Origin: Brachycybe producta
Lineage: Eukaryota; Arthropoda; Diplopoda; Playtdesmida; Andrognathidae
DNA length: 64,000 nucleotides
Direction of reading: 5' to 3'
Assembly: GCA_036925085.1 (NCBI GenBank)
Contig: JAUPFP010000002.1
Span: forward strand, 2,254,550 to 2,318,549
The translations under genes were made by a program, and so were the position numbers. The notes under the pieces were generated by a model. The model was given only the letters and a program-made list of their open reading frames with translations, ran no database searches and was not told the DNA's origin. Each line of letters begins with the position of its first letter. Within the stretch, counting starts at the first letter, position 1. Shown here piece by piece: positions 10,688-61,166 of the stretch.

Positions 10688-10689
10688 TT

Positions 10690-16380: not shown

Positions 16381-17265
16381 AGCCCAGCCAACGTCGGGTG
16401 TGAGGAGAAGCCTGATACTCCGAGTAGCATCGTTCCCTTCAACGTTACAACGTCCAAGCAATACTTGGAGGAGCGCGAGGACAAGATCAATATTAACACC
16501 ATGGCATGGGGTGTTAATCAGGAGTTTCGAGACAGCATCACTCCTGGACAGCCAGTTCCTGGTGGAGCCACCACAAGAGAAAAGTGTGGGGGTTGTGGGG
16601 CAATACCCACCCCCTCAAAGAACTACAGCTTGAGCTGCAAGGGGAAGCCATGGTACGACAGGCCGAGAAAGACAAGATTTGTGGGGGAAAAGCCTTGCCT
16701 ACTTTCTTGCGGTTTGCTTCCGCCTCACCAAGCTGGGTCTTCCCTGCACAGGGCAACTCCCGAAGGAGGAGCTCCCGCAGATCAAGGCCCACATCCAAGA
16801 GGCCAAATAATCTGCACAACCCACAACTGGTGGGTCTATGTGGAACACTTCGCTCTAGAGGAAGGGTTCCTTCGATTGGAGCTCCCTCTGCAGGAACGAT
16901 ACATCATGAGCCTCTCCTGCCAGATGAATCTCCTCGTAGTCATTGCATTCCTCAACCGACAGAACGACGAGACCGTGAGTTACACCTGGGATTCCGTCGA
17001 CGAAGCCACGTCCGCCCTTTTGGGAGCCTTCATCAACTCCGACTTTGGATTCCCTGTCGGAAGGGCCTTTCGTACTAGTCGCCTCCACATCCCGGAACCA
17101 GACCCCCGCTATAGGATCGCTGTTTTGTGAGATGCCGTGTGGGCCATCCTGCACGACAATCGGTTCTCTAGGAAAACATCGGGAACCGGGATATTCATAT
17201 CTTCCACCAGGATCTGCCAGACGATCAGGGCCAGTGGCTCTCTGCCGCCTCCAACTATCGATGAG
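16380..17265 (+). pseudogene. Element B LLNN-domain protein, broken
   Basis: Frame 1 (to about 16650) keeps the block INTMAWGVNQEFRDSITPGQ, as in A. The -1 frame then carries PLKELQLELQ. After a large deletion, frame 1 resumes with HFALEEGFLRLELP, DEATSALLGAF and RLHIPEPDPRYRIAVL. A TGA at 17128-17130 replaces the tryptophan present in A (LWDAAW). Conservation between A and B is concentrated in these protein blocks, which supports the ORF being real. Confidence 0.6.
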
Positions 17266-38440: not shown

Positions 38441-38447
38441 AATCTGT

Positions 38448-39519: not shown

Positions 39520-39592
39520 TGCATATATATATATGTATACATATACATATACATATATATGTATATGTATATGTATACATATATATGTATTA
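39520..39592. repeat. (TA/CA/TG) alternating tract, 5' flank of element A
   Basis: ATATATGTATAC-type sequence. Its continuation lies at 49890-50175, so element A interrupts a TA-rich microsatellite. Confidence 0.9.
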
Positions 39593-40280
39593 TGTAACAC
39601 CCTGTAAATCGTGATCCCGCCAAAACCATAGCCTGGGGGGTAAACAACTCTCAACCGTCCCTCCCTCCTCTCTGACTCACCTTTCTGACTCATGCCCAAG
39701 TGGCGGATTGATACATAAAGGACCATGGTCACTTGGACCTGGTTACACCTCGCAGGTGTACACAGGTCCAAGGTATAAAAGGACCATGTTCCTCTTTGTT
39801 CCTCAGTTCTTTCCTTTGCCTGTTTTTGCGATACATTCCAAATCATGGGCCTGAGGATTTCCAGTTAGTATTTTACTATTTACCCTTGTATCTGTACTTC
39901 TTACAAGGAATGAATAAAAGTGTTGTAACAAGAAGTAGCGTTGTCTCTATGTCTTTATGTTAATAACTTCTCTTCAGAGGCCGGAGGTTTCATAGGGCAG
40001 GAGCTATACGATTCTCAGCAGCTACAACATCTTCTCTGGTCGGAATACCGATGGAGAAGATGTATATCAGCATCAACCGGAAGAGAGAGAGATGGCCGCC
40101 ACTCTCCTGCATCGATTTCACCCCCATGCAGAAGAGTGACTACAATCTATCTCCATCCAGCTCTCTCTACAGCTCGGATCTTCTCTGTGCAGGTGTCATA
40201 CTGCTCAGAGAAGAAACGAAAAGTAGAAAATGTCATCTAAAGGTTGGTAATAAAATATTGGTTGATGTCAAAAGCTCACA
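39593..40280 (+). repeat. 5' LTR of element A
   Basis: 688 bp, TGTAACACCC to GCTCACA. The U3 has an inverted repeat just before a TATA box (39774-39780), and AATAAA occurs near 39912. Confidence 0.95.
39732..39780 (+). promoter_or_regulatory. U3 inverted repeat and TATA box
   Basis: CTTGGACCTG (39732-39741) pairs with CAGGTCCAAG (39763-39772). Inside, ACACCT pairs with AGGTGT around a three-base centre. TATAAAA follows two bases later. The same arrangement sits in the LTRs at 37900, 49341 and 61530 and is degraded in B. It may be a dimeric transcription-factor site; the AGGTGT and AGGTCC hexamers resemble nuclear-receptor half sites. Confidence 0.6.
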
Positions 40281-40300: not shown

Positions 40301-40397
40301 TAGCTCCATCTGCCTTCTCCGACCTGTAAACAGAAGCCGTCCTTTGTCCTAAGTCTCGTGACTGTGCCTCACGAGGCTTCGTCCGTCCTTTCTATGT

Positions 40398-40745: not shown

Positions 40746-42738
40746 TTTTTGTGGAATCGCGAAAGAGACTTGTGGCTACACACACCACGTGTCGACCGCG
40801 CGATTCTGTGTCCTGTTCTTAGAGACACATGTTAAAGGAACTGCTGCATCGACATCCATTAAGCACGTGGGCAACACCTTGGTAGTAGTTCTTTGACACA
40901 TGTGTTTCCGTCCGTGTTTTTGTATTTTATGTTTCCATTATCATCACCCACTTTCACCTTTGTTCTTCTTTAATTTTCAAAGTGAAACCCACACCAAGTG
41001 GGCAACACTTTAAACAAATTCTTCTTACTCTCCGAGAGGAGTTTGCAGTCTCATTAAGAGATGAGCAAACAAATCTCATCTACTAAGCTATTCACCTATT
41101 AATAGGCTTTTAAAGGACGTGTGTGTCTTTTAAAATGTCCTATTATCTTCACTCTTCATCTTTAATTTTCAAGCAAGATTCTCCCTAGCTCTATTTCATT
41201 GTTAGGGGGCTTACAAGCTTAGAACACACTTTTCCTAGCCACGTGGGACTTTCTTGTCCCCCCTTTTCTTTGTTCTTTGTTTTTACACTTGTGTTTCCCT
41301 TGGGACCCTCTATGTCCCAAGTCATGTTCTTCAATTTCTTCATCATCATCACCTCAATGCACCATCACATGAACTTTCTCCATTGGACAGCACTGAAGCC
41401 CGGCCGCCATCTTGGATCGACCGGACACTCTTCAAAAAGCGCCAACGGAGCGGTTTTTCGCTCCATGTGACTCATTGTTGTACCTTCTCTCATCTTTTTG
41501 TGTTCTCTTCTCTTCTCTTCTCTTCCAGAGGGTTGCACTCACGCGCCCCCTGGCGGAGTTCCTCTTGTTAGAGAAAACTTCTCTTTTTCTTTGAATTTTC
41601 TCTCTTTTTGTGTCTTTCTCCTGGCCACCATAAAAACGTGCCCCGGAGGAACTTTTCAATCATCAATTTTTGGACATTGTAATAAACTGAACCGGAAGTG
41701 GCCACCACAGCGCCACCTACGGACTTCTTCATTCTACTCAACATAGTCCCTCACTGGGCACTGACTCTGTCTTTTTCATCCAGAGCCATCCAGCAGTGAG
41801 GACTCAAAATTTCTTCAGCCTGAACATTTCTTCTGGTTCACCAAGCATTTAGCTTGTTGAACACACTTCAATTTCTACACTGTTTTACTGTTTTAATAAA
41901 ACTAAATTAAAACTTTTGATGTGCGGGCACCGCACCTAAGTTTTAAACTTTCAAAGTAAAACAGCTTTCTTTTCTTGCTTCTTTGGAGAGTTCAGCCATC
42001 TTGAACTTCTCCTTTGTTTGTGCATTTAAAAAAAAGTTCAGCCATCTTGAACTTTTTGTTCTTTGTGTGTTCTTTACACACACACTCTTGATTCTTGTTT
42101 CCAAGTAAAACTAAAAGTGCGGGCACCGCGCTCTAGCTTTACTCTTCGTATTGCTTTCCTCTTCTTCAGGTAATTGCAATACACTTTCATTTCTAATGCA
42201 CTTTCCGCAGTGCAATCTTGATTGGGTGGTGTACCACGCTCGAGGTTGTATTGTACATCTGCTGTTTCTTTATTGAGGTTTTTGGAATTCTCGTAACCTC
42301 CACGTGGTCGCCAAATACCACGTGTCGAGAGAGATCCTTCCAAAATCTGACGCTCAATAAAGAACTCACGACGCTACACCAGTTGGGAACCAAAACTCGT
42401 CACACGCCCAACTGAGAACACGATCAACACGATACAACCATCACCACACTAACGGAGTGAACGGCCACTTCGTTATACACGTCACAAGCTTAGGTAATCT
42501 ATCGTTACTCAGTGTATAAGAGTACGATAGTGTCGGTTGCCGACAAGCACTAAATTACCAACGCGCAGTGACATCACCGACCTACAACTTCACGAACTGA
42601 ACGAGTCCCATCATACTGGAACCCGAAAGTATAGCTCAGAGTGTACTCGAGAACCCTCGGAGCTGCACACAACGACTTGGACTTCGCCGGACTCGTTCAT
42701 CACCGCATATTCACATTACACAAGCCACTTCATTAATC
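40746..42738 (+). other. Long non-coding leader of element A
   Basis: About 2 kb, alignable with 10830-12719 of B, with many stops in all frames. It includes CT-rich stretches and paired blocks, for example the 'cggagcggtttttcgctcc' hairpin near 41450. No protein is recognisable. Confidence 0.6.
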
Positions 42739-45120
42739 ATGGCTACCTCACACGACAATACGGGGTCCCTGTCTGATCACCAGGGTTCACACGAAGATCT
42801 GTTGGAAGTACCCGTGACTACTGATGTGACACCACCGCCGTGGCCGACTGGGGCCGAGTTTGACCACCTGTCACAACAAGTGGCTGCACTCTCGACTCGT
42901 ATGTCTCAGTTCATAGACGACCGATTCACACCGAATCGACCGACTACACCACGGCGGACAACACGCACACACCGACTTCGCGACGATGACTCGGACGCCT
43001 CTTCAGTTCCCTATGTTGGCTACAGAGAGCGTCACGATCGTTACGAAAGACATTACACACCGCACACACGTCGTCTACCGCGTAACCCTGACTGGCAACA
43101 ACAAGGGCAGTCAGATGATCCGCGTCACAGAGATGAGCGTGCGGAAATACCGATTACGACACGTGCTGATTCTCCTCACTCGCTTGTCCGGGTTGCACGT
43201 AGCGGTCGCCGCTCGACACCCCCGGAACAACAGCCTAACCAAGGAGCGACACAAGGCACTTCAGTTTACGCGCCACGTTTTCCACCGCAAGGGGTAGGTC
43301 TGATGCCGGCTGGAATGCCAAACGTCCAGGATGGCATCTATCGACCAACCCCCAGAGAACCCTCCATGGAAGAGTTCAATAAGAAATACAGCGGTCGTCA
43401 CCCTGCCGACTCAATCCAAAAATTCAACGGATTGACAGGTTTCCGTCAATTCCTGGAAGAATTCGAGGAAGTGGCACACCTGTACGGTTGGAAAGACCAC
43501 CACAAGGAGGAATACATCACGGGGTGTTTCACTGGGGCCGCCCGAACGTGGCTGAGTAAACTGAGGTATGAGCTTCAGGACATTCCTTGGCCAGCACTGA
43601 GAGTACAGATGGTAGATACGTTCGGGAAGCCGAACGAACTGGCCATCTTGGAGAAAAAGTATACAGAGATGCTCCAGAAGGAAGGTGAGAGTACACAAGC
43701 TTTCATCTGGGAGTTTATGATACTCGGCGACCGAGTTTACCCGCAACTTGACGATCAGCTGCGTATAAGCCAGTTGCGCCGCGCTCTACATCCCACCATA
43801 CAGAACGCCGTGCACCACGCATCTACGACGTCGTTCAAGGACTTCGCAAACGCCGTCCTCAATATGGAGGTGGTCCTGCTGTCCTTGGATAAATGGCCGA
43901 CGGAACCAAAACCCGCAGCTGATTCACAGTCGGGTAAAGGAGCATCGAAGACCGACCAGGAGCCGGCGGCAGCCGCCAGCCCTAAAGACAAACCACACCG
44001 GTCTAGGCATGATAAAAAGCCTAGTCAGACTGCTGCCACCAATTCAAACCGACACTCTGCAGCGGACCCCCAACCAGAGACCACTCGCACGTTCGACAAG
44101 AGTAAGTCGACGTGTTATAATTGTGGCAAACTGGGGCATTTCGTCCGTGAGTGTCGGCAACCAAAGAAGAAGGTTGCAATCAAGCAGTTTGGGGAGCCGG
44201 TTACCGACTACGACATCAAAGGAGAGGTGCCTGAAACGGATATCATCACCGAAGACGGCGTTGAGTTTGCTCTAATAAGAGTGGCGGGACAAATCCGCCG
44301 GATTCCTCTTCCAGCAGCAGACTCAGCCGCCGGAGCGCCTACTCCTGATAAACCCGACAACGACAGCTCTGACGACTTTGAGGATATACCAGTCAAGGTG
44401 CTCGACCGGGCTCCTGCACATAAATGGACCCCGGACGAGCTAATCGTTTGGCAGGACACGCTCGACGTCCTTAAACAATCCGTCAAGGAGATTGGGTGCC
44501 GTGAAAATAAAACAATAGCCATCATGGCTCCCGGAACCCAATCGCCGACGAAGGGCCACTCCTGCTGCCGAAGACTAATGACAACGGTGTATGAGCAGCT
44601 GGTAAGCAGCTGTTCACCTCAAGAAGTCGGAGACTACGATGCCAGCGACAAGAACCCACGCATCGCCGTCACGATCAACGGGAAGAGTATACGAATGCTC
44701 GCGGACACCGGAGCTACGGGCAGCGTTATCACCATTGAACTCGCGCAGGAACACAAGTTCGAAATCGAGCCTGTGTTAATCCCACCCAACATTCAGGGTG
44801 TGGGAGGCCAAAGGATCACCGTGGTGGGACGACTCGCCGCGACGGTCCAGCTGGGCCCCCACGCTGTGCGAGGGCACTTACTAGTGATTACCGGCCGGCA
44901 CGAAGCCATCTTAGGCCGAGATCTAGGCCGGGCTCTGCACTTAGCTGTGTCCATGACAACAAATAAAGTATACGTGGAGGACGATCTCTTCGAGTCCACA
45001 CTCCGACAAAAATGCATCGAAGCACACATCGGATGGGCTCTGGGAGAAACTTCCGTAGAGGGCCCTGGCAAATCTGCCAGCACCTCTAAGGAAAACCTCG
45101 AAACTCCACCCCGTGAGTGA
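42739..45120 (+). CDS. Element A Gag-protease polyprotein
   Basis: 793 residues. An N-terminal Asp/Arg-rich region (1-220) is followed by a retrotransposon Gag capsid domain (about 225-385) with FRQFLEEFEEV and FTGAARTWLSKLRYEL, colinear with the Gag of element C. A CCHC zinc knuckle CYNCGKLGHFVREC begins at residue 459. An acidic linker leads to an aspartic protease with LADTGATGSVIT, catalytic Asp about 656. The ORF ends at the protease flank: HEAILGRDLG...NKVYVEDDLF aligns with the corresponding block of C, after which C continues into RT but A stops. The ATG in ATCATGG is well placed and shared with B. The product would build particles and mature itself. It is intact, consistent with recent activity. 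Confidence 0.92.
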   Translation: MATSHDNTGSLSDHQGSHEDLLEVPVTTDVTPPPWPTGAEFDHLSQQVAALSTRMSQFIDDRFTPNRPTTPRRTTRTHRLRDDDSDASSVPYVGYRERHDRYERHYTPHTRRLPRNPDWQQQGQSDDPRHRDERAEIPITTRADSPHSLVRVARSGRRSTPPEQQPNQGATQGTSVYAPRFPPQGVGLMPAGMPNVQDGIYRPTPREPSMEEFNKKYSGRHPADSIQKFNGLTGFRQFLEEFEEVAHLYGWKDHHKEEYITGCFTGAARTWLSKLRYELQDIPWPALRVQMVDTFGKPNELAILEKKYTEMLQKEGESTQAFIWEFMILGDRVYPQLDDQLRISQLRRALHPTIQNAVHHASTTSFKDFANAVLNMEVVLLSLDKWPTEPKPAADSQSGKGASKTDQEPAAAASPKDKPHRSRHDKKPSQTAATNSNRHSAADPQPETTRTFDKSKSTCYNCGKLGHFVRECRQPKKKVAIKQFGEPVTDYDIKGEVPETDIITEDGVEFALIRVAGQIRRIPLPAADSAAGAPTPDKPDNDSSDDFEDIPVKVLDRAPAHKWTPDELIVWQDTLDVLKQSVKEIGCRENKTIAIMAPGTQSPTKGHSCCRRLMTTVYEQLVSSCSPQEVGDYDASDKNPRIAVTINGKSIRMLADTGATGSVITIELAQEHKFEIEPVLIPPNIQGVGGQRITVVGRLAATVQLGPHAVRGHLLVITGRHEAILGRDLGRALHLAVSMTTNKVYVEDDLFESTLRQKCIEAHIGWALGETSVEGPGKSASTSKENLETPPRE

Positions 45121-45189
45121 CGACGAAAGCAACGGCCACCCACGCTGTCAAGAAACCAAACGCGACGGAAATAAAACAATAATTCACCA

Positions 45190-45220
45190 GTGTTTATTTC
45201 ATGACTATGGAAATAAACAC
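45190..45220 (+). other. Conserved post-gag hairpin (element A)
   Basis: GTGTTTATTTC pairs with GAAATAAACAC around a nine-base loop, 70 bases after the gag-pro stop. Element B has a hairpin at the same place with a different but self-complementary inner sequence. Confidence 0.6.
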
Positions 45221-46622
45221 CAGCAACCATCAAATATCAACAATAGAAGAGCGGGAGGAATTTGAGAATTGTTGTATTAAGAAACAACTGAGGACAGTTG
45301 TCAAGAGGTGGGGGAGGGGATAAAAGGAACCCCCAACGAATAAACAACCCCACAGCATCAACAACCCCTCTAAACACTCTCAAATAACTCCCAAAACTCT
45401 ACAAAATTCACACAACTTTAATTTTTGAAACACTTTTAAACTTTTCAAAATGGCCGCCAATAATTACATATTGGCAACCATTTCAAACATGCAATAAACT
45501 ACACCGGAACCACGTGGCCTTCACACACAACTGTCAACCACGTGGTACACCTGGGAAAAACGCCGAAGGCCAGTCAAGGACGTTCAGAAGAAAATTCAAG
45601 AGCCATAAAAGGGTCAGCAAAAGGAAAACACCGTGCTCCCCTTTATTATGGACGGACGTCATTGACCATGATGTTGACAGTAGAGGGATAGAAAACTTCA
45701 AAGAGACAATTGCTCTGGGGGCCAGACCAATGCACTGGGACTTCAAAGAAAAAAAAAACAAACAACAAAAACTGCTGGCCATAAACAAATAAAAAAAAAA
45801 AGGAAGAAAATCAGTTTTGAAGATTTTGTGAGAGCGGACACCTTCAATTAAAAAATAAAATTGAAGAACCTGTCACCCTCTCAATTAAGATCGAATTGTG
45901 GGACACCAACTCCTGTCCCACTCCCCCCTAAAAATAATAACAAACAGCAAGGTACATTAGTAACCTTGCTGACCTATTCTTTTCCAAAAAAAAAGGCATT
46001 AAGGAAAAGAAGGGGAGAAAGTTAATGGGCAACTTCACACCTCGGTGTGAAATAAAATAACGGCCCTTCTCCCTCGAGATTCCTTAGTCCTTTTGTTTAT
46101 CTAAAAATAATAAACAGGACCGACTCTGATAAGAATTAGATCAACACCTCTCACATCTAATGTTGGTGGGACAACCCCCACCCCCAATAAATAAAGTCGT
46201 GAAGAAACCAATTAGAGTAAGGTGTCTTATTCTAAAAGGGGCCGGCCCTTCTAACTTTTAAAATTAAATAAGAAAAGTGACCAAACTTGGTCAATTACCA
46301 CTCGATTTGCTCTCTTCAAAGAAGCACTCGTTTTTGTTCATCTCTTTATGCTCGATCTTCTTCAACCATCAAATCTTCAATCTACTTCTGTGCCAAGTTC
46401 CAAATTTTAATTTCGAACTTCTCCAGTTTTGTTGTCAATCCAAAGCTTGAGTACCACCTTCAAGCCTTTGAACTCACGTGCAGTGCATCAGGCCTTCAGA
46501 ACTCTTTGGACCTCTTGAAATAATAACAGAGTGATCGGGGACCGATTTCTGTTATTATTTGGAAGTAACCACCAGCAGCGGGACTTTTGAAAAAGTAAGA
46601 ACTTTTAAACTCTTAAGAAAAT
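45221..46622 (+). other. Non-coding spacer between gag-pro and second ORF (element A)
   Basis: 1.4 kb without ORFs. It contains a second hairpin ACAACT/AGTTGT (near 45283) and a TATA-like GGATAAAAGG (45319-45328) that could start a separate transcript for the second ORF. Both have counterparts in B, but B's box is changed to GGGTAAAAGG. Splicing is an alternative way to reach the second ORF; I see no decisive sites. Confidence 0.45.
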
Positions 46623-47360
46623 ATGCCAGGTAGAGGCTCATGGAGAGGAGGCAGAATGATGTCTGCCTCTTCTAGTGAAGATGAGACGGAGAGTGGAACG
46701 GCGGGGACCGCTGAACCCCTCTCTCAATCTACCTGCCAGCTACAAAAGGCGGGCGCCGCCAGTGCGCCCACAACAAGAAGAGAGTCGCCGAACATAATAG
46801 ATAGGCGCCGCACCTCCTCCGAACCGGAGAATTTTCACCGGCGTGGGGAGAAGCACCTAAAAGCAAGCTTCAAGCGACCTGCCAATGTCGGGCGCGAAGG
46901 GAAGCCTGCTGCTCCAAGCAGCATCGTCCCCTTCGACGTCACGACATCAAAACACTACTGGGAGGAGCGGGAAGACCGCATCGATATTAATACAATGGCA
47001 TGGGGGGTTAACCAGGCGTTCCGCGATAGCATCGCGCCTGGTCAACCCATTCCGGGTGGAGCTGAAGCAAGAGGGAAGCGTGGGGGAGGTGGATCTGTGC
47101 CCTCCCCCTCGAAGACCTCCACTTGGAGCTGCAGAGGGAGGCTGCTCTTCGTCGGGCAGCCAGAGATAAGAAGGAGGGGGAGGACAATCTGGCGTACCTC
47201 CGTGCGGTTTGCGCCCGCCTTGTCGAGCTGGGCTTACCGTGTACGGCGCAACTCCCGAAGGAGGAGCTCCTGCAAATCGAGGCCCGACTCCAAGAAGCCG
47301 CCCGAGTCACGTCGTCAGCTACGTCATCATCTCCATCCTCCGACTCGCCAGCAACCCTGA
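46623..47360 (+). CDS. Element A second ORF, first frame (ORF2a)
   Basis: Starts at ATG with MPGRGSWRGGR, then SASSSEDETESG. This resembles the starts of the equivalent regions of C (MPRSFGKESASSED) and X. A conserved block, DINTMAWGVNQAFRDSIAPGQ, is shared with B. Beyond about 47080 the frame gives arginine/proline-rich sequence not preserved in B, while the -1 frame becomes the conserved one. So the real protein probably leaves this frame near 47066-47090. The function is unknown; the opening is a low-complexity acidic tail. Confidence 0.6.
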   Translation: MPGRGSWRGGRMMSASSSEDETESGTAGTAEPLSQSTCQLQKAGAASAPTTRRESPNIIDRRRTSSEPENFHRRGEKHLKASFKRPANVGREGKPAAPSSIVPFDVTTSKHYWEEREDRIDINTMAWGVNQAFRDSIAPGQPIPGGAEARGKRGGGGSVPSPSKTSTWSCRGRLLFVGQPEIRRRGRTIWRTSVRFAPALSSWAYRVRRNSRRRSSCKSRPDSKKPPESRRQLRHHLHPPTRQQP

Positions 47361-48799
47361 CAACTGGCCTCTCCACATCTCCTTCTCCACCCATAACGCC
47401 ACCAGAGCCTTTCCAACACTGCTCACCGGTGCCGTCAATCACTCCGCCGCCTCCTCCTCATACACCATTATCGTCACCACCAACCTCCCGATGTGCCACG
47501 CCTCCACGCAGCGAGGCCGCCACACCAACTCCGACTCCAAAGCTACCTTCCATAGTGGTGGTTCCCCAACCTGTTCGTGTTCAGGTTCCCACTGGGGCTC
47601 GCCCCAAGGAGCCTCAACAGTCCTACAGGGGCCACCACTCTTCTCGAGACTCTCTTCAACGGCCACAACCACGTCGCTCTTCGCCACGTGGTTCCCATCT
47701 TTCGCCCCGACGCCGACCCGACGGAAGAAGTCAGCAGGAACAACGTGGTTCCTCTGGACGCGGCCCTCCGCCGCGTAATAACTTCGACCCAAGGGTCAGG
47801 CAAGACCTACAGGATCACCGAGTCCAACTGGACCGCGACCATCGCTACGAAACTCGGGGCCCTCCTACTCGGGTCCCGCATCGCTCTCCTCCTCCGCCAC
47901 CTCCGGGCCGCCCTTCTGGACAACCTACGCCTACACCTTTGATGCCGCCACCTTCCGCAGAGCGTGCCGCGTTCTTGAAAAAACAGAAGGCCATCACAAA
48001 CCTTCTGCAAGACGTCATGCGACAGGGAGGTGACCCCATGGAAGCACTGGGCCGTGCACCAGGAAGTGCCAAGCTACTGGAGGTGCTGAGCAGGAAGTCG
48101 GCATCAAAGCGACTACGTCAGCGGGCCCGCGATATGGCCCGGTCTGCCTTGCGCCATGCCAGGCCTATCACGGGCGCATCAGTTTCTTTGGAACCTGCGG
48201 CTCCAACACCAGCCCGACCAGCCGCACCGCCCACTGTACCCCATGCCGGGGCTACTCTGGGGCGGTTACCGCTGGATCATCCGTTCCGTGCAGCCACCTC
48301 CGGCGAGAGGTTGCTCAACAATCGGTGGGTCACTTGGCAGCGCGAAGTGCGCTCTGCCAACACCCTTTACGTAGGACACTTCTCTTTGGAGGAAGGGTTT
48401 CCCCGTCTGGACCTCCCTCCCCGGGAGCGATATGTCGTGGGACTCTCCCGCCTAACAAGTGTCCTCATCACCATCGTCTTCCCAAGAAGACGGATTGTTG
48501 AAACCACCAGTTTCGCCGGAGATGCCATCGATGAAGCCACGGAAGCCCTTTTGGGAGCTTTCGTCAACTCCGTCTTTAGACTGCCAGCTGGACAGACGTT
48601 CCGTACCAGTCGTCACTACATTCCGGAACCGGATCCTCGTTACCGAATCGCCGTCTTATGGGACGCCGCTTGGGCTACACTGTACAACAAGCGGTCCTCC
48701 CGTAAGATTATCGGGGACCGGGACATCTTCAATATCTTCCACCGGGATCTACCTGATGACCAGGGACAATGGCTGTCTGCCGCATCCAGCTACCGATGA
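47066..48799 (+). CDS. Element A second ORF, -1 frame, with LLNN domain (ORF2b)
   Basis: About 578 codons, open from just after a TGA at 47063-47065, with no ATG until near 48018. Expression by initiation in its own frame is therefore unlikely. Blocks: PLEDLHLELQ (conserved in B), a helical charged stretch with LRAVCARLVELGLP that resembles a SAP-like helix pair, a long proline/arginine/histidine-rich middle, a basic helical region (KAITNLLQDVMRQ, RQRARDMARSALRH), and the C-terminal domain from 48311 (RLLNNRWVTWQ, HFSLEEGFPRLDLP, DEATEALLGAF, YIPEPDPRYRIAVLWDAAW). I do not recognise a known family. Likely roles are RNA binding or particle function, but this is inference only. Confidence 0.65.
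   Translation, partial: SKREAWGRWICALPLEDLHLELQREAALRRAARDKKEGEDNLAYLRAVCARLVELGLPCTAQLPKEELLQIEARLQEAARVTSSATSSSPSSDSPATLTTGLSTSPSPPITPPEPFQHCSPVPSITPPPPPHTPLSSPPTSRCATPPRSEAATPTPTPKLPSIVVVPQPVRVQVPTGARPKEPQQSYRGHHSSRDSLQRPQPRRSSPRGSHLSPRRRPDGRSQQEQRGSSGRGPPPRNNFDPRVRQDLQDHRVQLDRDHRYETRGPPTRVPHRSPPPPPPGRPSGQPTPTPLMPPPSAERAAFLKKQKAITNLLQDVMRQGGDPMEALGRAPGSAKLLEVLSRKSASKRLRQRARDMARSALRHARPITGASVSLEPAAPTPARPAAPPTVPHAGATLGRLPLDHPFRAATSGERLLNNRWVTWQREVRSANTLYVGHFSLEEGFPRLDLPPRERYVVGLSRLTSVLITIVFPRRRIVETTSFAGDAIDEATEALLGAFVNSVFRLPAGQTFRTSRHYIPEPDPRYRIAVLWDAAWATLYNKRSSRKIIGDRDIFNIFHRDLPDDQGQWLSAASSYR
48311..48780 (+). other. LLNN C-terminal domain, element A
   Basis: About 150 residues, shared in order with C (52576-52136), C2 (34790-34287), X (7921-7496) and B (16833-17260). 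It is predicted alpha/beta by eye, with a hydrophobic strand-like run in the middle and a closing D-x3-(T/R)-x3-L(D/W) block. Confidence 0.55.
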
Positions 48800-49161: not shown

Positions 49162-49201
49162 CTGGAGTACGAGGACGTACTCCAAGCAAAGTTGGAGGGT
49201 A
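49162..49201 (+). promoter_or_regulatory. Hairpin and polypurine tract before 3' LTR (element A)
   Basis: TGGAGTAC pairs with GTACTCCA (49162-49183). GTTGGAGGGTA then abuts the 3' LTR as plus-strand primer site. Both are conserved in B. Confidence 0.6.
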
Positions 49202-49889
49202 TGTAACACCCTGTAAATCGTGATCCCGCCAAAACCATAGCCTGGGGGGTAAACAACTCTCAACCGTCCCTCCCTCCTCTCTGACTCACCTTTCTGACTC
49301 ATGCCCAAGTGGCGGATTGATACATAAAGGACCATGGTCACTTGGACCTGGTTACACCTCGCAGGTGTACACAGGTCCAAGGTATAAAAGGACCATGTTC
49401 CTCTTTGTTCCTCAGTTCTTTCCTTTGCCTGTTTTTGCGATACATTCCAAATCATGGGCCTGAGGATTTCCAGTTAGTATTTTACTATTCACCCTTGTAT
49501 CTGTACTTCTTACAAGGAATGAATAAAAGTGTTGTAACAAGAAGTAGCGTTGTCTCTATGTCTTTATGTTAATAACTTCTCTTCAGAGGCCGGAGGTTTC
49601 ATAGGGCAGGAGCTATACGATTCTCAGCAGCTACAACATCTTCTCTGGTCGGAATACCGATGGAGAAGATGTATATCAGCATCAACCGGAAGAGAGAGAG
49701 ATGGCCGCCACTCTCCTGCATCGATTTCACCCCCATGCAGAAGAGTGACTACAATCTATCTCCATCCAGCTCTCTCTACAGCTCGGATCTTCTCTGTGCA
49801 GGTGTCATACTGCTCAGAGAAGAAACGAAAAGTAGAAAATGTCATCTAAAGGTTGGTAATAAAATATTGGTTGATGTCAAAAGCTCACA
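49202..49889 (+). repeat. 3' LTR of element A
   Basis: 688 bp, one base different from the 5' LTR by eye. It ends GCTCACA against the TA tract. Confidence 0.95.
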
Positions 49890-50178: not shown

Positions 50179-50893
50179 TTCAAAGTACTATGGATTTAAT
50201 ATTTGAATTATTCCACACGGAAGGTTATATTGAGTTGAATATGAATAAAAAATACCTATATTTCATTAAAGAATTTTGGAAATGTGAGGTGACAATTTTT
50301 GCCACAAAAATGGGATGGGGCTGGGATACTTTCGCTTTTGGAAATTTAAAATGTCGTTGTATGGTGACTCAGGAAAAGTCACTTCATTTTTAAGTTTTTT
50401 ATGGTTTTATTGACGTATATTAAAATTTAAAAATCGTTTTGACAATCGTCTTGACAATATTTTGAAAAGTTATTTCTGGCGGTAACGGTCTCTTTAATAA
50501 CAAAAATTGTTGAAATATTATCAAAAGTATCTTTTTAAATTGTAAACGCCCCCTTAGAATTTTGTTTAATTATTTTCAGAATCAAACTAAATTATTTTTA
50601 TTTTTTCATATAGGTAAAACAACCACTTAAATATCTTTACCGTTGCCCTCCAGAATATTACTGTGCGGAGGTATGTAAAAGTAGTAAAAGTTTTAAGTAG
50701 TAAAAGGAGTTTTTAGTTTTAGTAATTGGTGACCAAGATGAATTTTTATCGTAAAATTATTGAGGATTTCTGGGATCTGTAAACTGATCAACACACTTAT
50801 CATTCCTCATTTAACTGTAAACTAGAAGAGCAAAGCCCTTCAGAACAACAAAAAAAAAATGCTGCAAGAAATAACTTCAAAAGTAGTATATAT
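50176..50893. other. AT-rich non-coding stretch
   Basis: No ORF, repeat end or RNA recognised between the TA tract and element C. Confidence 0.5.
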
Positions 50894-51804
50894 TGTGACG
50901 GACCTTTTTCCACTAGTAGAATCTGCTCTTTTAGGTTAATACGAGCGAGTTTTCACTCGTATTGATAGTGAGTGGCTAGGTCACTAATTCTACTGGCCCG
51001 GGAGGACTAGACCAATATAACGTCTATTTTGTGTCCTCACTAGTCTCTGGCAAAAGACTTCACAGTCTTGAGGATCTTTAATCTCTGTATCTCTCGGACT
51101 TTCGTCCGTAAATCTGCCCTAAGAATCGCGTAAAAATATACTCACTTGTACGTTGCAGGTTTGCACCTGTTGGGACCTTTTTGATGTATCCAAATAGGTG
51201 AAGACCTGCAAATGATGAATTCACACTTACAGAATTTAAGTTTCGAATAATTAACACCACTGGTTTAGTAAAATAGTAAGATCTGTTTATTTCGGAGATA
51301 AACATAAAGTTGGCGAACTGGTTTTGCACACACATAAAAATATAACTTTTGAGAAAATAAAAGAAAAGAAAAGAAGCTGCCCAAAATCGGGCATAGGTTC
51401 GGTATATTAAAAAGAAGCTCAAAAAGCGTTTTTTGACATTCAAAATGTAACTCTTTATATACCCTGAGAATCCACAAGTCGGATTCTCAGGGCACAATTC
51501 GACAATTGGTTAAAACAATATTTTGGACCAATCAAAAGATTGATCCATTTGTCCAAAACCATGATTCATCTCCTGTTGTCACACATAGGTGACAACAGGA
51601 GAAACGAAAACAAAATCAAACTCCAAACGAATAAAATGAGGGGGGAACGAAAAGATCAGATTATCTCATCACATATGATATCTGGGTCACTTGGTACCAA
51701 AAGTACCGAGTGGCCCAGAAGCTAAATAAAGTACAGAGTGGCGTTAAACCCAAAAAAACTAAAACGCTAAAGAGCGAAAATAAGCGGCGGGCCCAAATGT
51801 CTCA
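50894..51804 (-). repeat. 3' LTR of element C
   Basis: 911 bp. Minus-strand TATA region GGGTATATAAAGAG near 51455. Preceded on the minus strand by the polypurine tract GGGGGAG (51805-51811). Confidence 0.95.
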
Positions 51805-52063: not shown

Positions 52064-55000
52064 TTATGGCTCCGGCGATAGGTGGCCGCGTCGATCCCTC
52101 CTCCCGAACTCTCCTTCCGTGGTCGTCTCGTAGAGTCGCTCCAGTGTCTCCAGCGGAACGACAGTCGACCGCTCCAACGTCGCTAGCACGGTGGCTTCCA
52201 CGAAGTCCAACATCCTGGTGGCGGAGAAGTCCCTCTCGATGGCCCTTGGCGAATGGTGGCGGAATCGTCGATCCTGGTTCCGATCGGGAATCAGGGTGGC
52301 CAACATCGTTTCGGCGATTAACTCCAGAGTCCTGGTGCGGGATTGCTCCCGGGTTCCAGGGTGGATCAGTTGAATGATATTTGATTCGTCGCTTGCATGA
52401 AGTGCGACGACGGCGGGATATCCTGGCGTCTCTAGAACGACAGCGGTCCAGAGTACATCTCTCCTGGGTCGTGGTCGTTCACTTGATATCTCTCTTCTAC
52501 TGTTGAATACTCCCAAATATCGGAGTGCGTGTCGTCCTCCGCGTCTAGAAAAGGAAACTATACCATTATTAAGGAGACGTAACTGACGCTCCTGTTCCTC
52601 TTCTGGTGTCGTCTTTGAAGGCGACGGCGACTTAGGCTTGGTGATCAGCTTAGGGATTGCTCCCTTTGGTGATACTTCCTCATTTCGGGTAGGGTGTCCT
52701 CGGCATCCTTGGAATTGTTCGTCCCGACGAGCTTTTCGGCGGGCAGCGGACCCCTGACCTTTCGGTCGTCTCATCTCTTTTGGTCGGTCCCTTGGCGGTG
52801 ATTGACGATCAAAATGGACCTCCCTCCTCTTGTTTCCCTCTCGGACGACAGTCACTGTCGATTGCGGCCTGAAAGGGACAATGGGCGGTAGAGATGTAGA
52901 CGATACTTCTCTTGGTGGTGTCGGGACCGAAATTGGTCCTGGCAACACCAGCTTCTTCGTTAACTCCGGTCGGTATCCTCTCACAGTGGGTTCATCCACT
53001 GTGGCCCAACTGTTGGTCGGAGACGCATCACGGACTGGTTTTCTGGTGGTCGGTAGTACGGTGCCGACTTCAGGGACTTCGATGGGCTTCTGGCCCCTCT
53101 TCATACACTCTTCATTTTGCTTAGCGATCCACTCTTTCATGGCTCGCTTATCTGCATTCCTCTCTCCTCGGGTGCGGCCCCGGCGATTTGAGGAGTACAA
53201 CTCGGCGGGTACTCCCCCTTCGGCATCACTGCCGGGCGGCGTGTCCATTTCCTCTGGGGGTCGCGGGAACTGCTGTCTCGGGTCCCGTGCTGGTCCCATG
53301 TAGATGTCCGGTTCTGGATCACCTAACTGAGGAGGCGGAGATCTCATTAGAGGAACGAAACGATTTGCCAAGTCATCTTCCGATTCGGGGCTCTTCCGTT
53401 TCTTCAAAGAGTTGCCCGAATCGTTCCGGTTTTTCTCTGAAGTTGAGGCATCGCTGCCTGAAGGCTTCCCAGCCGTGATGGCTGCATCGGTCTTCTGGGC
53501 GGCGTCCTCAATCTCCATTACATCGTCATCGTGGTCGCTTCCGAATAAGGCGGTGAAATTGAAGGAATCTTCGCTGCTGGCTGACTCCTTTCCGAAAGAA
53601 CGTGGCATCTTCTTCTTAAAAATAAACTTTTTTGCACTTGACACAGTAGAAAATTGCGAAACTTTATTTTCGCGTCCTTCTCTTGTCGAAACAAATTCAA
53701 AAGTGGCGTCCAAAATGGCGGCGGCGTCCCCACGTGGTTCTACAGGGTTGCCAAGTCTAATTTCCGGGTCAGAAGAGGCGGAGCTATTAGCTACTTCCGG
53801 TTTCTCTTCTTTTGCTCTTCTCTCGATTTCTCCCACCAGGCGGCGCTGCGCAAGGCGGCAAATTCGAATTTCTGCATCCCTTGAGGCTTTTTCTTGACTC
53901 TCTGGGTCTAATTTGGCCATTTTAACGCCAAATTTCGCCCATCTTGGCGGTAAATTAGCTTTTGCGTAATTTTTCTTCTCTCCACCACGTGTTTGCACAC
54001 GGGAATCCAATTGGACTGGTCCTTTTGGAGCAGTTTTCTTTGGTCTCCCGCGTTTCCTTTTAGGTGGTTCCAGAGGAATTTCTGGAACTTCCTCTTTTTC
54101 TTTTTCAGAAGTTTCCGGATGAGTTTCTTGGCTGGCATCGGGGATAACTTCTTCTTCTTCTTCACGATGAACTTCTGGAGTACTCTCAACAGGTAAGTTG
54201 TCGTCTGCTTCGTCAATAACTTCCGCATCAGCGTCGGGTTCTTCCTTGGCGCTGGTAGTTTCTTCAATGTCATCAGGTAAGTTTGTTTGAGGAGCCCTCA
54301 GGTCATTGGCCTCGAAATAGGGTCTCATTTGCTGAACATTGACGGTGTCTCTCATAGTCAGACCAGATCGAGTGACGTACTCGATCTCGTAGACTAAATC
54401 GGTTATCTTCCTCGTGACAAGGCAGGGTTCCTTGTATGGCCAGATGAGTTTCTGAGCCATTCCTGGCTTTGGCACACAATCTCTTATCAGCACTTTCTGA
54501 CCCGGTTTATAGTCCGGAATCGTACGATGCTTCTCGTCGTAATTTCTTTTCTGCACCTCCTGGGCAGCTTCGATATTCTTTTTAGCAGCATCCAAAGCTG
54601 GATCGGACTGCTCTGCTTCGTCTGTTACGGGCGGTGGCACGATAGGAGCGCGTGGCATCATGTTATCCAACGTGGTCCTGGGCTCGCGCCCGAACATCAA
54701 TCGATATGGCGAAAATTTCGTTGAGTTATGCTCTACCAGATTGTAGGCCATAACCGCGTCACCTAATTTCTTTTTCCAGTCAGCCTGTTGCTGAAGGACA
54801 TCCAAGTGACGTTTCACCACTTCCATGACTGTATGATTCGTTCTTTCTGCCAACCCATCAGCTTGTGGATGATAGGCGGTCGTGGCAGCATGCTGGATTG
54901 CGTAGGTCTTGAAAAATGCTTGAGTCTCATTACTCAGAAATTGGGGTCCTCGATCAGTGATGATCTTCTGAGGAACTCCAAACTCGTTCACAATTTTATC

Positions 55001-58000
55001 CTTGACGAAGGCAATTGCTGCCTGAGCGGTTGCTCTTGCTACTGCTTTGGCGATGCAATACTTCGTCGCGTAGTCCACTGCAATCAAAATATGTTGAACT
55101 CCTCCGACTGACTTCGGAAGAGGACCAACATAATCCATCCCCCAACACTCTGTCGGCTTTCCCACAATGATTGGTTGTAACAATCCAGGTACTTTTTGGT
55201 GCGACAGTTTGGTTCTCTGACAGATGTGGCACGACCTGACATAGTCGGCGACATCTGCTTTCATTGTTTTCCAGTAGAATCTCTTCTGGATTCTCTTCAT
55301 CGTTTTGGTGAATCCGAAATGTCCGGCCTCAGGCACATCATGGAGCATCTCGAGAATCCCAATCCTCAATTGTCGGGGCACAGTACACGTTAGTACTGGC
55401 ACGGTGTCTTCATACTTCATGTGGTATAAAACGCCATCCACTATCGCAAACTTCTTGTGATAGGGATGCAGTCGATCTTGCTGGAGTGATTCTTTGATGA
55501 GGAGAAGTTCTTCATCAAGGGATTGCTCCCGTTCCCACTGGAAATCGTTGTAGACAGTAAAGATGTGAAGGTCTTCGAGAGCTTCCATCTCCCCATTCTT
55601 CTGCTTCCAATTAGCAGGAACGTTGCTCTCGTAACGTGAAACACAATCGGCGTCCACGTGCGTTTTACCCTTCTTGTAAACTACCTCATAGTCATATGGC
55701 TGCAGTTTCATTTGCCATTTACCCAATCGGCCTTCTAAATTCTGTGCTGTCTTTAAATAACACAGGGCCTTATGATCGGTAAATATCTTGAATTTCCGGT
55801 TGAAAACATACGGTCTGGCTTTTTCTATGCCATAAACGATTGCAAGACATTCTTTTTCAGTCGTTCCGTAGTTTCGTTCTGCTCCTTGGAGTTTTCGGCT
55901 GTAGTAACCTAGAACTCCAGGTTTCCTTTCGTTTTTCACATACTGATAAATTATGACACCAATCTGGTAATCACAAGCATCAGTGTGCAAGGCAATTTCT
56001 GCCTCCGGATCATACAAAGTTAGAATCGGAGCGGAGCAAAGAGCCTTCTTTAAACCATCAAAAGCGACCTCGCAGTCGTCATTCCACTTGAAGTCCAGGT
56101 CCTTCTTGACTAGGGCTTGCATTGGTTTGGCGATCTTGGAGTAATTTTCAATGAAACAGTTGTAGTAGCCGGTCATTCCAAGGAAGCTTCTGACGTCAGT
56201 CACGTTTTTCGGTGCAGGAAATCCTTGAATCGTCTGCACTTTCTCTTCATCAGGTCGAATACCAAGGGCACTAATCTTGTGTCCAAGGTAGTTGATCTCG
56301 TCTTCTCCGAAGAAACATTTGCTGGGTTGAAGACTTAAATTGGCGTTCCGGATGAGCACCAAGATATCTCTCAATCTTTTCATGAACTCTTCGAAGTTCT
56401 TCGCAAAGATGACAATGTCATCTAAATAGACCAGGCAGGTCTCCCATTTGTGGCCTGCTAGTAACAAATCCAAAGCACGCTGCATCGTCGCAGGTGCATT
56501 CATCAAACCAAACGGCATTCTATTAAATTCGTAGAGGCCATTGGTGCATACGAAAGCCGTCTTTTCCCGATCTCTTTCTTCCACTGGAAATTGCCAATAA
56601 CCTGATATTAAATCCAAGGTTGCAAAGATCGTGGCTCCAGACAGAGAGTCGAAAGCGTCATCTATCCATGGTAACGGATATTGGTCAGATTTGGTTTGAG
56701 CATTTAGTTTGCGATAATCGACGCAAAATCGATGCTGACCATTCTTCTTCTTGACAATCACCACCGGACTTGCGTACGGACTCTTGGATGGGCTTACAAT
56801 GCCGGCGTCCAACATATCACGTAGTGTCGACTTGATGATCTCTCTCTGAGCAGGTGAAGTACGCCGGAGCGGTTCTCGAACCGGCGGGTTTTCACCCGTG
56901 TCAATCACGTGTTTTGCCAAATTTGTCTTTTTCAAGTCGGAGGTCTTGAAGGCAAAAATGTCTCTAAATTCTCCGAGAAGTTTCCGAATCGCCATTTGTT
57001 CTTCTCTTGAACGATTCGGGTTGACATTCAGGCTGTCTTGCAATTTGACATAGTCTTGCACTGTCACTTCGTCACTCTGTGCTTCAATTTTATAAATCGA
57101 GGGGCCCACAGGCACATCGAGAGCTGTAATGGCGTCCTCGATCTCTGCGATTGTTTCTCTGGCTCCGAGGTGAATAACCTCTCTAGACGGATTGAAGATT
57201 TGAATTTGAAGGATGGACTTTCCTCTTCCTTCGATGATCCCAGGAGAAACTTTGACTCCTCTCTGCTGGAACGTGCTTTCGCACGAGTCGATGAATTGAA
57301 GACTACCTTCTTGTAGATCATCAGGAGCATTGACCTCGACGATTGCAACTTTTTTCGGATCCAGCACGAGATTCTGGACCAGACGTAGCTTAGCTGGCCC
57401 CTTATTCAGGAGTTTCTCTTGCAGATCTTCCTCTTCTTTATCCTTAAGATTTTCAATAAAATCTTCTACTTTTTGGTTCTTTTGGAGAGTGTCCGGCAAC
57501 AGTTCCTCTCCAAAATACACTTTCTTTTTGTTCATGTCAAGGCAAAGGTTGAGGTCTTTACCGAGATCGTTTCCCAGCAAAGCCTCACGTCGTCCTTTGA
57601 TGACAATCAACTTTCCTTTGACAAGTTTTTTGGCGACTCAAATCGGCACGATGACTTGTCCCATGATGTTTAATGGATTTCCTCCGGCGCCAGTCAAATT
57701 TGGCGGAAAAGGTAGCGGATCCATTACCAACTTCATCTCTTTGACTAGTGACTCACTTATGACAGAAGCTTTGGCACCACTGTCGGTAGTCATCACTAAC
57801 TCACGACCTCCGAAGTTCACACGAACTTTGGGAGCCGTCTGCTCATCTTGTTGTTGGACTTGAAGTTCACGAGGCGTGACTGTCTCAGTCAACTTGGTCC
57901 AAACATCTTGTATTGTCTTCGAACAACACTGGTTTTTCAACCGACAGAGAAGACTAGACTCTGCAGTCGAATTAACAGGTGTGGCTACTTTCTTTTTCGC

Positions 58001-58617
58001 CACCCCATGTTCTGCTTTGGTTTTAACAGGAGTAGCTCCTTTTGAGACTACTACCTGTTCTGCTTGGTTTTTAGCAAGAGTAGCTCCTTTTGAGACAACT
58101 ACTTGCTCTTCTTTAGTCTCAACAGGTGTGGTTACTTTCTTTTTCGCCACACACTGTTCTGCTTGAGTGTTAACAGAAGTAGCTCCTTTTGAGACTACTA
58201 TCTGTTCTGCTCGATTGGACATCTTGGCATCGTTCGTCTTTACAAACGACGTAGAGGCCCCACTTTGCAGCGGGTTCCGCCGGCTCCCATCTTCGTGAAT
58301 GGTACGGATGTGGATCCCATCTCCAAAGTCTGCTTTATGTCGTGGAGAGTCCTTTAGCTGCACCGCAGCACAGCTCTGCTTAGGAGTCGTTGATTCCTCT
58401 TCTCTGTTGTCGTTTTGGCACAGGCTACCCAGACCTGGAGGCATCCCAGCATGGTCGACCGCAGCCAAACCAATAGATCCTCTCGTTATCTGGTCCTGTC
58501 GGACCGTGACGTCAACCTTTGCAGGTTTCGTTGACTCCTCTTCTTTCGGGCTCTCGTTGACATCTTCTTTTTCGGGCGTCACTACTTTGGGTGCGAGTGG
58601 CGCCCTTAGTAGTTTAA
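52064..58617 (-). CDS. Element C Pol polyprotein with C-terminal LLNN extension
   Basis: In the -1 frame from the shift site. It starts with a Lys/Glu-rich linker, then an aspartic protease with TTDSGAKASVIS (about 57780). A TGA at 57638-57640 interrupts it after VIVPI; beyond it the same frame runs 1848 codons. Counting from 57610: RT 240-440 with VYLDDIV at 394-400; RNase H 540-660 with Asp543, Glu585, Asp612, Asp652; integrase zinc residues His757, His764, Cys794, Cys797, and core Asp826, Asp886, Glu922 (35 residues apart, DD35E); integrase C-terminus to about 1100; AT-hook-like KRKRGRPKKTAP at 1184. From about 1335 (MPRSFG) an extra region of 514 residues ends in the LLNN domain. This extension is unusual for gypsy Pol. 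All catalytic residues are present. Confidence 0.9.
52136..52576 (-). other. LLNN C-terminal domain, element C
   Basis: Residues about 1679-1825 of the Pol frame: RLLNNGIVSF, RYLGVFNSRR, TAVVLETPGYPAVVALHASD, and DFSATRMLDFVEATVLATLE. It lines up in order with the separate proteins of A and X and is preserved in C2. Confidence 0.6.
57638..57640 (-). other. In-frame TGA within protease of element C
   Basis: ATT TGA GTC lies in the protease, where A has a sense codon in the aligned block. A CGA to TGA change (CpG transition) is the simplest cause. It would block Pol in this copy unless read through. Confidence 0.75.
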
Positions 58618-58618
58618 A
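58574..58618 (-). promoter_or_regulatory. -1 ribosomal frameshift signal between gag and pol
   Basis: The gag frame reads GCT TTA AAC TAC TAA. TTTAAAC (58618-58612) is a classical slippery heptamer in the right phase. After the spacer TACTAA, GGGCGCCACT (58605-58596) pairs with AGTGACGCCC (58583-58574), ten positions with one C-A mismatch, around a 12-base loop. Slipping back one base leads straight into the open pol frame. All three parts match established -1 frameshift sites. Confidence 0.85.
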
Positions 58619-60072
58619 GCTGTCAGATGGTTGTCAAAATGGAAATAATGCGTTCGATTATTTATTAGGACAGGCACCATCTTCATTCCATTGGGTAGAA
58701 CATGGATTTCGTCGGCGCGGATAACTTTCGGCGCCGTCGTTTCCGACGGTTCATCAACTCTATTAACTGGAGTTGGTGGAGTCGTCTTGTTCTCCTCCTT
58801 CTTCGGTTTCGGTTCGTTGGGGCACTGGAACGCTCGATGTCCAGGCTCCTGACATTGATAACAGATGAGTGGCCCAGTAGACTTCCTTCTCTGCTGGGGT
58901 CTCGATCCACCATCTCAATTTGGTTGTGAATCCTGCGTCTTTTCAGATGTGGCCGGATTCTTAGGAGTCCACGTCTGCTTTCTTTGTTGTTGCTGCTGTT
59001 GTTGCTTCTGCTGCTGAGGCTTCTGCTGGGCCGGTTGGTTACCAGTAGACGTCCTGTACACTAGCATCTTCTCCTCTATTAGTTCTCCTTCTGTTTGGGC
59101 TGCAAATTTAACAAAGTCATATAAATTGTCTTTAGGTGCCCCAAATAGATACTGTTTGAGAGATGGTAGCAGGCTCTTCCTCAGGCTTGAGATCAACAAA
59201 GAGTCGTCATCATTGGGATGTATCCTTCGATACATCTCTGCATACTCTTCCGCATAGACTTTGAAGGTTTCGTTGTCCTTCTGAGTCCTTGCGGACAGCT
59301 CGTTTTTCATCCTTACTTTCTGGTCTGGCAATAGGAATTCATTAATTATTTCATTCCTCATCATGATCCAATTGATCTCGCCATATTCCAAGCGGAAACG
59401 AGCAAGCCATTTGATCGCTCGTTTTCGAAGGAGACCAGTAAAGTGGCTGCATCGCTGCAGGGAGTTCCACTGGTGCGCAATCGCAATATCTTCGAACTCT
59501 TCGATATATAGAAGGATGTTTTCAGACCCAGTATACTTCGGAAAACCCTGGAGTGGATGTAGCGAATTCTTTTCAGAATACGGCATAGGTCCCAGGTTTG
59601 GAGTCCATTCAGGAGCTTCAGGCCTGAGCTTGCGCCCGGATTCTGTCGGTGATTTGCTTCTATTTCTGAGATTTCTCTCATGTGTGTGTTCAAAGCGACG
59701 TGGAGTCGATTCTCCACATAACCGTCTTACCAATTCTTCTCGACTTTCAGGAGTAGCGTCTTTCATCAGTTCGGCAAACCGGTCGACCATCTTCTGTTCG
59801 TTGCTTCGTCGAGAGGCCTCAGAAGATGCTACTTCAGTCTTGAGTCGGGCGTCGGCTTGTCGTTCTTCGTCTTCAGCACGCTGTTCTTCCTCCTGGAGTC
59901 GCTTCTCTGATGCAAGGGCCCTCAGCTTGTCCTCTTTCTCTTGCTTTCGTGTTTCGCGGGCAACACGGCGTGTTTCCCGAGCTTTTGCTCGTTCCTTTAC
60001 GAGCTGTTCACGTCGGCGTCTGTATTGGAGTTGCTGGGAGAACCTTGCGGTTATTCCGTTGGTATTCATCAT
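58606..60072 (-). CDS. Element C Gag (one in-frame TGA)
   Basis: ATG at 60072. A very charged N-terminal helix (residues 15-110, Arg/Glu/Ala) suggests a coiled coil. The capsid domain (about 155-335) has FPKYTG, YIEEFEDI, IKWLARFRLEYGEINW, and RKSLLPSLKQY, then a glutamine-rich run. A TGA at 58915-58917 interrupts the frame. Beyond it the same frame continues through a CCHC knuckle, CYQCQEPGHRAFQC, to the TAA at 58606-58608 next to the frameshift site. The TGA separates the nucleocapsid from the capsid and looks like a mutated CGA codon. Confidence 0.85.
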
Positions 60073-60221
60073 TATGTATCGTAATTTGTGTCAATAACAA
60101 CGTAAAAATGTTTCGAAAAATTTTGTTTGGCTTCAAAATTGTTTGCACAATTGAATTACGATAATTCTCGTGTTTTTCAACACGTTTCTTAGGGCAAAAC
60201 GAGGTAGCAAGTTTTATAAAC

Positions 60222-60239
60222 TACCCCGCACCTCCACCA
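60222..60239 (-). promoter_or_regulatory. Primer-binding site of element C
   Basis: TGGTGGAGGTGCGGGGTA on the minus strand, five bases (TATAT) from the LTR. It is identical to A and B. Confidence 0.8.
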
Positions 60240-60244
60240 TATAT

Positions 60245-61166
60245 TGTGACGGACCTTTTTCCACTAGTAGAATCTGCTCTTTTAGGTTAATACGAGCGAG
60301 TTTTCACTCGTATTGATAGTGAGTGGCTAGGTCACTAATTCTACTGGCCCGGGAGGACTAGACCAATATAACGTCTATTTTGTGTCCTCACTAGTCTCTG
60401 GCAAAAGACTTCACAGTCTTGAGGATCTTTAATCTCTGTATCTCTCGGACTTTCGTCCGTAAATCTGCCCTAAGAATCGCGTAAAAATATACTCACTTGT
60501 ACGTTGCAGGTTTGCACCTGTTGGGACCTTTTTGATGTATCCAAATAGGTGAAGACCTGCAAATGATGAATTCACACTTACAGAATTTAAGTTTCGAATA
60601 ATTAACACCACTGGTTTAGTAATATAGTAAGATCTGTTTATTTCGGAGATAAACATAAAGTTGGCGAACTGGTTTTGCACACACATAAAAATATAACTTT
60701 TGAGAAAATAAAAGAAAAGAAAAGAAGCTGCCCAAAATCGGGCATAGGTTCGGTATATTAAAAAGAAGCTCAAAAAGCGTTTTTTGACATTCAAAATGTA
60801 ACTCTTTATATACCCTGAGAATCCACAAGTCGGATTCTCAGGGCACAATTCGACAATTGGTTAAAACAATATTTTGGACCAAATGGACCAATCAAAAGAT
60901 TGATCCATTTGTCCAAAACCATGATTCATCTCCTGTTGTCACACATAGGTGACAACAGGAGAAACGAAAACAAAATCAAACTCCAAACGAATAAAATGAG
61001 GGGGAACGAAAAGATCAGATTGTTATCTCATCACATATGATATCTGGGTCACTTGGTACCAAAAGTACCGAGTGGCCCAGAAGCTAAATAAAGTACAGAG
61101 TGGCGTTAAACCCAAAAAAACTAAAACGCTAAAGAGCGAAAATAAGCGGCGGGCCCAAACGTCTCA
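60245..61166 (-). repeat. 5' LTR of element C
   Basis: 922 bp. Nearly identical to 50894-51804, with an extra nine bases near 60880. The 61167-61405 stretch beyond it holds no recognised feature. Confidence 0.95.

Follow-up and report, generated by a model that had tools for sequence, protein, structure and literature searches.

Many long terminal repeat (LTR) retrotransposons carry a 3' open reading frame (ORF) without an assigned function, and TR-GAG and other non-autonomous LTR elements have kept gag and lost pol. Here, we analysed a 64,000 nucleotide stretch of contig JAUPFP010000002.1 of the diplopod Brachycybe producta (the window), in which gypsy-type LTR retrotransposons encode a 3' protein that ends with a characteristic domain, the LLNN domain; further copies were sought across the same genome (295 Mb). 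The 3' protein with its conserved C-terminal domain is real, is present in several related gypsy families and is unnamed in the libraries and listings that were searched. The elements concerned are designated A, C and X, of which X represents a third family, and C', a group whose domain is 42-46% identical to that of C.

Among described proteins, the nearest counterpart in location, length and link to the polyprotein frame is CERV of Cer1, a Gypsy/Ty3 element of C. elegans. CERV is reported to be a 517 amino acid protein that is made from a spliced mRNA, contains H, M and G domains, a KRKK motif and a GTPase-like domain without critical residues, and is needed for the export of genomic RNA (PMC10309623). 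The protein studied here likewise lies between integrase and 3' LTR and shares the polyprotein frame in C and in one X-type copy; A encodes it in an ORF of its own. If translation starts at the Met discussed below, its product would comprise 514 amino acids in C and 550 in C', with a similarly short basic motif, KKRK. Both proteins may also contain an enzyme-like fold without key residues, which is GTPase-like in CERV and possibly Ulp1-like in the LLNN domain. The H, M and G domains and the spliced mRNA, however, are features described for CERV. The comparison is one of descriptions, which also weighs against the CERV-like explanation preferred below.

An extra C-terminal domain after a Gypsy-type integrase is also found in Ginger1 transposases, some of which are reported to end with a Ulp1 domain (PMC2836005). 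In contrast to the LLNN carriers, which are LTR elements without a Pfam match to the peptidase family C48, Ginger1 elements are DNA transposons in which a Ulp1 or OTU domain can be recognised. Coding capacity beyond gag-pol is furthermore described for plant LTR retrotransposons with extra ORFs, such as Retand with its long region between pol and 3' LTR (PMC7264820, PMC11963269), but these elements have plant hosts and are likened here by description, not by sequence.

The 3' protein and its C-terminal domain

The LLNN domain is a genuine coding sequence and constitutes the last approx. 150 residues of a 3' protein that is located between integrase and 3' LTR. This arrangement is seen in element C, which has the LTRs and the order of reverse transcriptase (RT), RNaseH and integrase of a Gypsy/Ty3 LTR retrotransposon and lies on the minus strand. 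Its 5' LTR (60239..61166) is 98.4% identical to its 3' LTR (50888..51804), and between them are located a gag-like frame (58915..60090) with tblastn matches in A, in C' and in B, a relative of A, a pre-pol frame with a protease-like end (57638..58633) and a pol frame of 1,857 amino acids (52064..57637). The pol frame matches the Pfam families RVT_1, RT_RNaseH, Integrase_H2C2 and rve, and continues behind the integrase without interruption into an acidic stretch, a basic and proline-rich middle part and the LLNN domain (52136..52576). The fusion to Pol that a preliminary description of the window had proposed for C is therefore correct.

Translation and profile search also confirmed the domain in A (48311..48778, plus strand) and in X (7499..7921, minus strand), where it opens with FLNN. 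The same description had rightly listed a copy in C2, a truncated relative of C with 85% identity, but not its start: the domain (34290..34802, minus strand) begins at 34802, 12 bases earlier than the proposed 34790, and reads LLNH. For B, it was mistaken. The frame proposed from 16833 contains stops, and what is left is a remnant without the LLNN opening that is split over two frames of the plus strand (16810..17127, profile E 5e-53, and within 17172..17261, E 3.5e-6). Nor is there a common closing block D-x3-(T/R)-x3-L; this pattern occurs at residue 108 in A, at 40 in C, at 36 in C2 (counted from 34790) and at both 71 and 116 in X. When A-, C- and X-type profiles were run against all six frames of the window (stop-free stretches of at least 25 amino acids, E <=5), they retrieved the A, C, C2 and X loci and the B remnant only. 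The likeness within each family is far beyond chance.

Pfam scans covered the whole A, C and X frames and the domains of 30 C-type, 8 X-type and 12 A-type members. For these domains nothing exceeded the cut-off, with scattered matches at E 0.034 or worse, which agrees with the earlier statement that no described gypsy domain of this kind was known; in the same set, no chromodomain or other domain above cut-off was detected behind the integrase.

Genome searches, in which candidate counts are lower bounds and 150 matches each were scored, revealed the domain in high copy number. The A domain yielded 1,089 candidates, and all 150 scored copies were at least 99% identical and free of internal stops; in 130 of them, the ORF comprises 715-754 amino acids in a single frame. 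The C domain yielded 300 candidates, which include C copies with identities between 58% and 100% and the C' group with frames of up to 1,096 amino acids. For the X domain, 1,150 candidates were found, with relatives that are 71-84% identical. The X frame in the window is just 324 amino acids long, and X had been regarded as a separate product. This is contradicted by its relatives, because many that are 82-83% identical terminate frames of 2,893-2,897 amino acids and one with 78% identity terminates a frame of 2,901, the longest among those scored; the frames of a second X subfamily include several of 2,478 amino acids. In one X-type copy (pieces L095/L094/L092), the domain follows the integrase in frame and the outline is like that of C.

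Ratios of nonsynonymous to synonymous substitution rates (dN/dS; Nei-Gojobori estimates, which are raised where rows are decayed copies) had been proposed as a check and revealed purifying selection in diverged copies, with values mostly of 0.02-0.22. Compared with copies that are 81-82% identical (L087, L085), A has a dN/dS of 0.12 and 0.15, while near-identical A pairs with few changes range from 0.33 to 0.66. Ratios are 0.06-0.16 within C, 0.13 for C2, and 0.13-0.22 for the X-type copies L062/L063/L064 against L066/L067, with 0.21-0.42 for other X pairs. C' pairs range from 0.02 to 0.10, with largely saturated synonymous sites; between two C' subfamilies, the proportion of nonsynonymous differences (pN) is 0.053 against a saturated synonymous proportion (pS) of 0.732, and ratios between C and C' are saturated or not measurable. 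Thus, the domain is coding, under selection and present in high copy number.

AlphaFold models of the A and C domains are of low confidence (mean pLDDT of 47 and 50). For the C model, SUMO and NEDD8 proteases rank first, and it is possible, as a tentative assignment, that the domain behind the integrase is related to Ulp1/SENP (peptidase C48, clan CE) but has decayed and now serves as a binding module. This is opposed by the absence of a C48 profile match in the Pfam scans of domain members and in decoy tests, and by the missing His-Asp-Cys catalytic residues, as neither A nor C has a conserved Cys column. An HW motif is confined to C' (16 of 18 rows). The Cys at column 96 of alignment A1 is invariant in all 8 X-type rows, but by our reading it lies closer to the X Asp than in Ulp1 and is thus probably not the catalytic Cys.

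In the joint alignment of C and C' domains (A6), columns 63 and 110 hold a His in almost every row (27 and 28 of 30, respectively). Elsewhere in the genome, a transposase-like ORF, which we take to be Mutator-like, has a C-terminal Ulp1 domain with HW, D and DCG motifs kept (L124, G000:C12:3728210-3728509), and an equally scoring match is located at G000:C27:1094205. In addition, weak C48 matches that stay below the cut-off (17.5 bits) form three pairs on contigs C2, C5 and C38; the members of a pair have opposite orientations, are separated by about 5-6 kb and lie in frames of 844-1,088 amino acids.

Probable common origin of the LLNN domains

The A, C and X versions likely descend from one domain that was carried along with the elements, and considering sequence tests, model order and position together, we regard their common origin as quite probable. 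Profiles were compared against column-shuffled decoys (300 per pair and 200 for the pooled profile). As good a score was reached by 2 of 300 decoys for A-X, by 8 for C-A and by 16 for C-X, and none of the 200 decoys matched the pooled A+X profile against C, which aligned in register (hhalign P 0.005). The A-X alignment extends over 110 columns from the start. In both low-confidence models, five strands are followed by a long helix and a second helix; these helices are separated by an extra strand in C, and the A domain is more helical at its end.

Several points weigh against a common origin. The pooled signal is limited to the first 37 columns, and these hold the opening that was used to pick the domain, so that part of the signal reflects this selection. 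A larger A profile weakened the A-X comparison (P 0.004 to 0.02), and of three runs, two placed the best A-C alignment out of register and one in register. The profiles, whose construction from the copies had been suggested in the preliminary description, each recover their own family in the window and fail to find members of the others. The domain models, finally, are of low confidence and come from A and C alone.

Alternatively, the A, C and X tails might be unrelated and fast-evolving, each family having its own accessory domain with an LLNN-like start by chance. This would explain why each profile matches its own family alone, why BLASTP gives E values of only 0.12 (A/C) and 0.057 (A/X) and none for C/X, why C-X is equalled by 16 decoys and why single-sequence shuffles are mostly unremarkable. 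We nevertheless consider it unlikely, because place, length and the kind of preceding linker are alike, the pooled profile surpasses all its decoys with the right register from the first columns, A and X align over most of a domain's length from the start, and the predicted order of strands and helices is alike in A and C. Furthermore, the RT, RNaseH and integrase pieces of C and X-type elements are 44-50% identical, which makes a shared ancestor with a 3' protein plausible. The earlier proposal of one domain shared by A, C and X is therefore supported by position, by the A/C strand-helix order and by weak profile signals, and stands as likely rather than proven.

Retention of the 3' protein in elements without pol

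Element A (plus strand) is bordered by a 5' LTR (39591..40280) and a 3' LTR (49200..49889) that are 99.9% identical over 690 bases. Its gag-protease frame (42601..45120, 839 amino acids from stop to stop) matches Retrotrans_gag, zf-CCHC, RVP and Asp_protease_2. RT, RNaseH and integrase would be expected in the following stretch (45121..46616), but a single plus-strand frame of at least 120 amino acids starts there (45388-45792, 134 amino acids), and tblastn at an E value cut-off of 1e-3 gave no match in element A to RT, RNaseH or integrase of C except for a 48-residue stub at the protease end. Element A was therefore rejected as an autonomous gypsy/Ty3 element. Its 3' protein (46623..48796) opens with MPGRGS, with the Met two codons past a stop. 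That A encodes it as a separate ORF, as previously suggested, is correct, but a frame shift near 47070 breaks the window copy. Element B (about 10336-18327) is related to A, with about 70-73% DNA identity, and has decayed. The two are colinear through most of the expected pol region, and their colinearity over the gap, at about 70%, points to a loss of pol that preceded the divergence of A and B.

Element A has tandem repeats in its long 5' leader (40384-40749), with offsets of 58, 120 and 236 bases and a likeness of 81-89%. An extra LTR-like copy at 37778-38441 is 81-82% identical to both A LTRs.

A second group without pol is C', for which this state rests on the two copies that were read (L099 + L091, and L101, then L075). 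Their gag is 55% and 52% identical to that of C, and both match the pre-pol, post-integrase and 3' protein pieces of C, while neither gave a match to its protease, RT, RNaseH or integrase at an E value of 1e-3. The presence of the protease in A and its absence in C' suggest two separate losses of pol. Like TR-GAG, A and C' have retained gag without pol, and they add a 3' accessory protein. Thus, lineages without pol nonetheless retain the LLNN protein under selection.

The opposite arrangement also exists and weighs against the explanation preferred below. A genome search with the RT of C yielded 2,594 candidates, and the 150 scored were all 85-100% identical; their frames fall into classes of 2,204-2,207 (n=21), 1,697-1,704 (n=20) and 1,920-1,950 amino acids (n=16). 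Groups whose RT is 97-99% identical to that of C have no LLNN domain. Among the LLNN matches listed, none of the 20 frames of 1,697-1,704 amino acids and one of the 16 frames of 1,920-1,950 amino acids (contig C10, 1,929 amino acids) is represented. One copy read from each of these two classes (L096 and L097) ends without the domain, and the sequence beyond the frame end matches the 3' flank and the LTR of C. Domain-less sisters that are nearly identical in RT point to element parts spread over a community of elements, and they imply that not every element needs the domain in cis or that others supply it. This coexistence of elements with and without each part weakens a strict requirement in cis. 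It agrees with the suggestion that the 3' accessory protein is borne by a community of elements.

The window also contains a match to the trehalose receptor family of chemosensory receptors (4774-5742, E 3e-32), which is probably a host gene or exon, and a non-LTR retrotransposon endonuclease domain (19769-20434, Exo_endo_phos_2, E 3e-11).

Possible functions of the 3' protein

As a whole, the data are best explained by a 3' accessory protein that acts, like CERV, with the RNA or Gag of the element encoding it, an explanation that leads the others while falling somewhat short of an even chance. The product would start at the Met that opens the A ORF and that lies within the C and C' frames. 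A K/R stretch followed by a Met is present within the frame in 27 of 30 C loci, including the window copy, the other three having missed the search pattern, and it occurs apparently at the same place in both C' copies (L091, L101). In C, the putative separate product would comprise about 514 amino acids from residue 1344 of the pol frame (52067..53608, minus strand) and in C' about 550. Its first 60 residues are acidic, with a net charge of -8 in C and -11 in C', and X has -5 and -3 in its first two blocks.

We propose that a copy can borrow RT and integrase, while the 3' protein would work on its own RNA or Gag, so that the gene is retained; retention in pol-less elements would then indicate that the protein acts preferentially in cis. 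For example, it might bind genomic RNA and aid nuclear exit or particle entry, as CERV does for Cer1. The KKRK motif, which starts at residue 69 in the predicted C product and at 72 in that of C', is together with the basic middle part a weak pointer to RNA handling, and by analogy a role in RNA export or packaging is possible, albeit less assured than the general explanation. A catalytically dead Ulp1/SENP-like fold may serve binding in such a protein, perhaps with a SUMO- or NEDD8-like partner, and would be compatible with an accessory protein that acts on its own RNA or Gag.

In a more specific arrangement, the genome would be split, with pol-bearing elements without LLNN and pol-less gag/LLNN elements complementing each other, and with LLNN as a dead ubiquitin-like-protease fold that carries its own RNA; taken in full, this is improbable. 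Even less credible is a 3' extension that serves the integrase in targeting or chromatin binding, in the manner of a chromodomain. The location in frame behind the integrase in C and in one X-type copy would fit, but A and C' retain the protein although they have no integrase, and sister elements that possess an integrase have lost the protein.

In a plain hydropathy scan with 19-residue windows, which left out the start of the A protein, maxima were 1.30 in A, 1.43 in C, 1.59 in C' and 1.39 in X, and no clear membrane segment was evident at the usual cut-off of 1.6. A role as envelope or fusogen in the passage of particles from cell to cell, which short membrane proteins are reported to have in some insect elements (PMC11952523), is very improbable despite the env-like position and the single C' window just below the cut-off, because the maxima are lower in A, C and X, because this window coincides with a helix of the folded domain in the C model, and because the linker is long, basic and proline-rich.

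Two pol-less groups have thus retained gag and, with it, a 3' protein of one kind, and A and B have seemingly been without pol for long. Retention in the absence of pol separates the parts that can be borrowed, RT and integrase, from those that are kept, and thereby offers a handle on the role of the 3' protein. If the Ulp1-like fold is true, it would also tie these Gypsy elements to the arrangement of integrase and Ulp1 in Ginger1 transposons.
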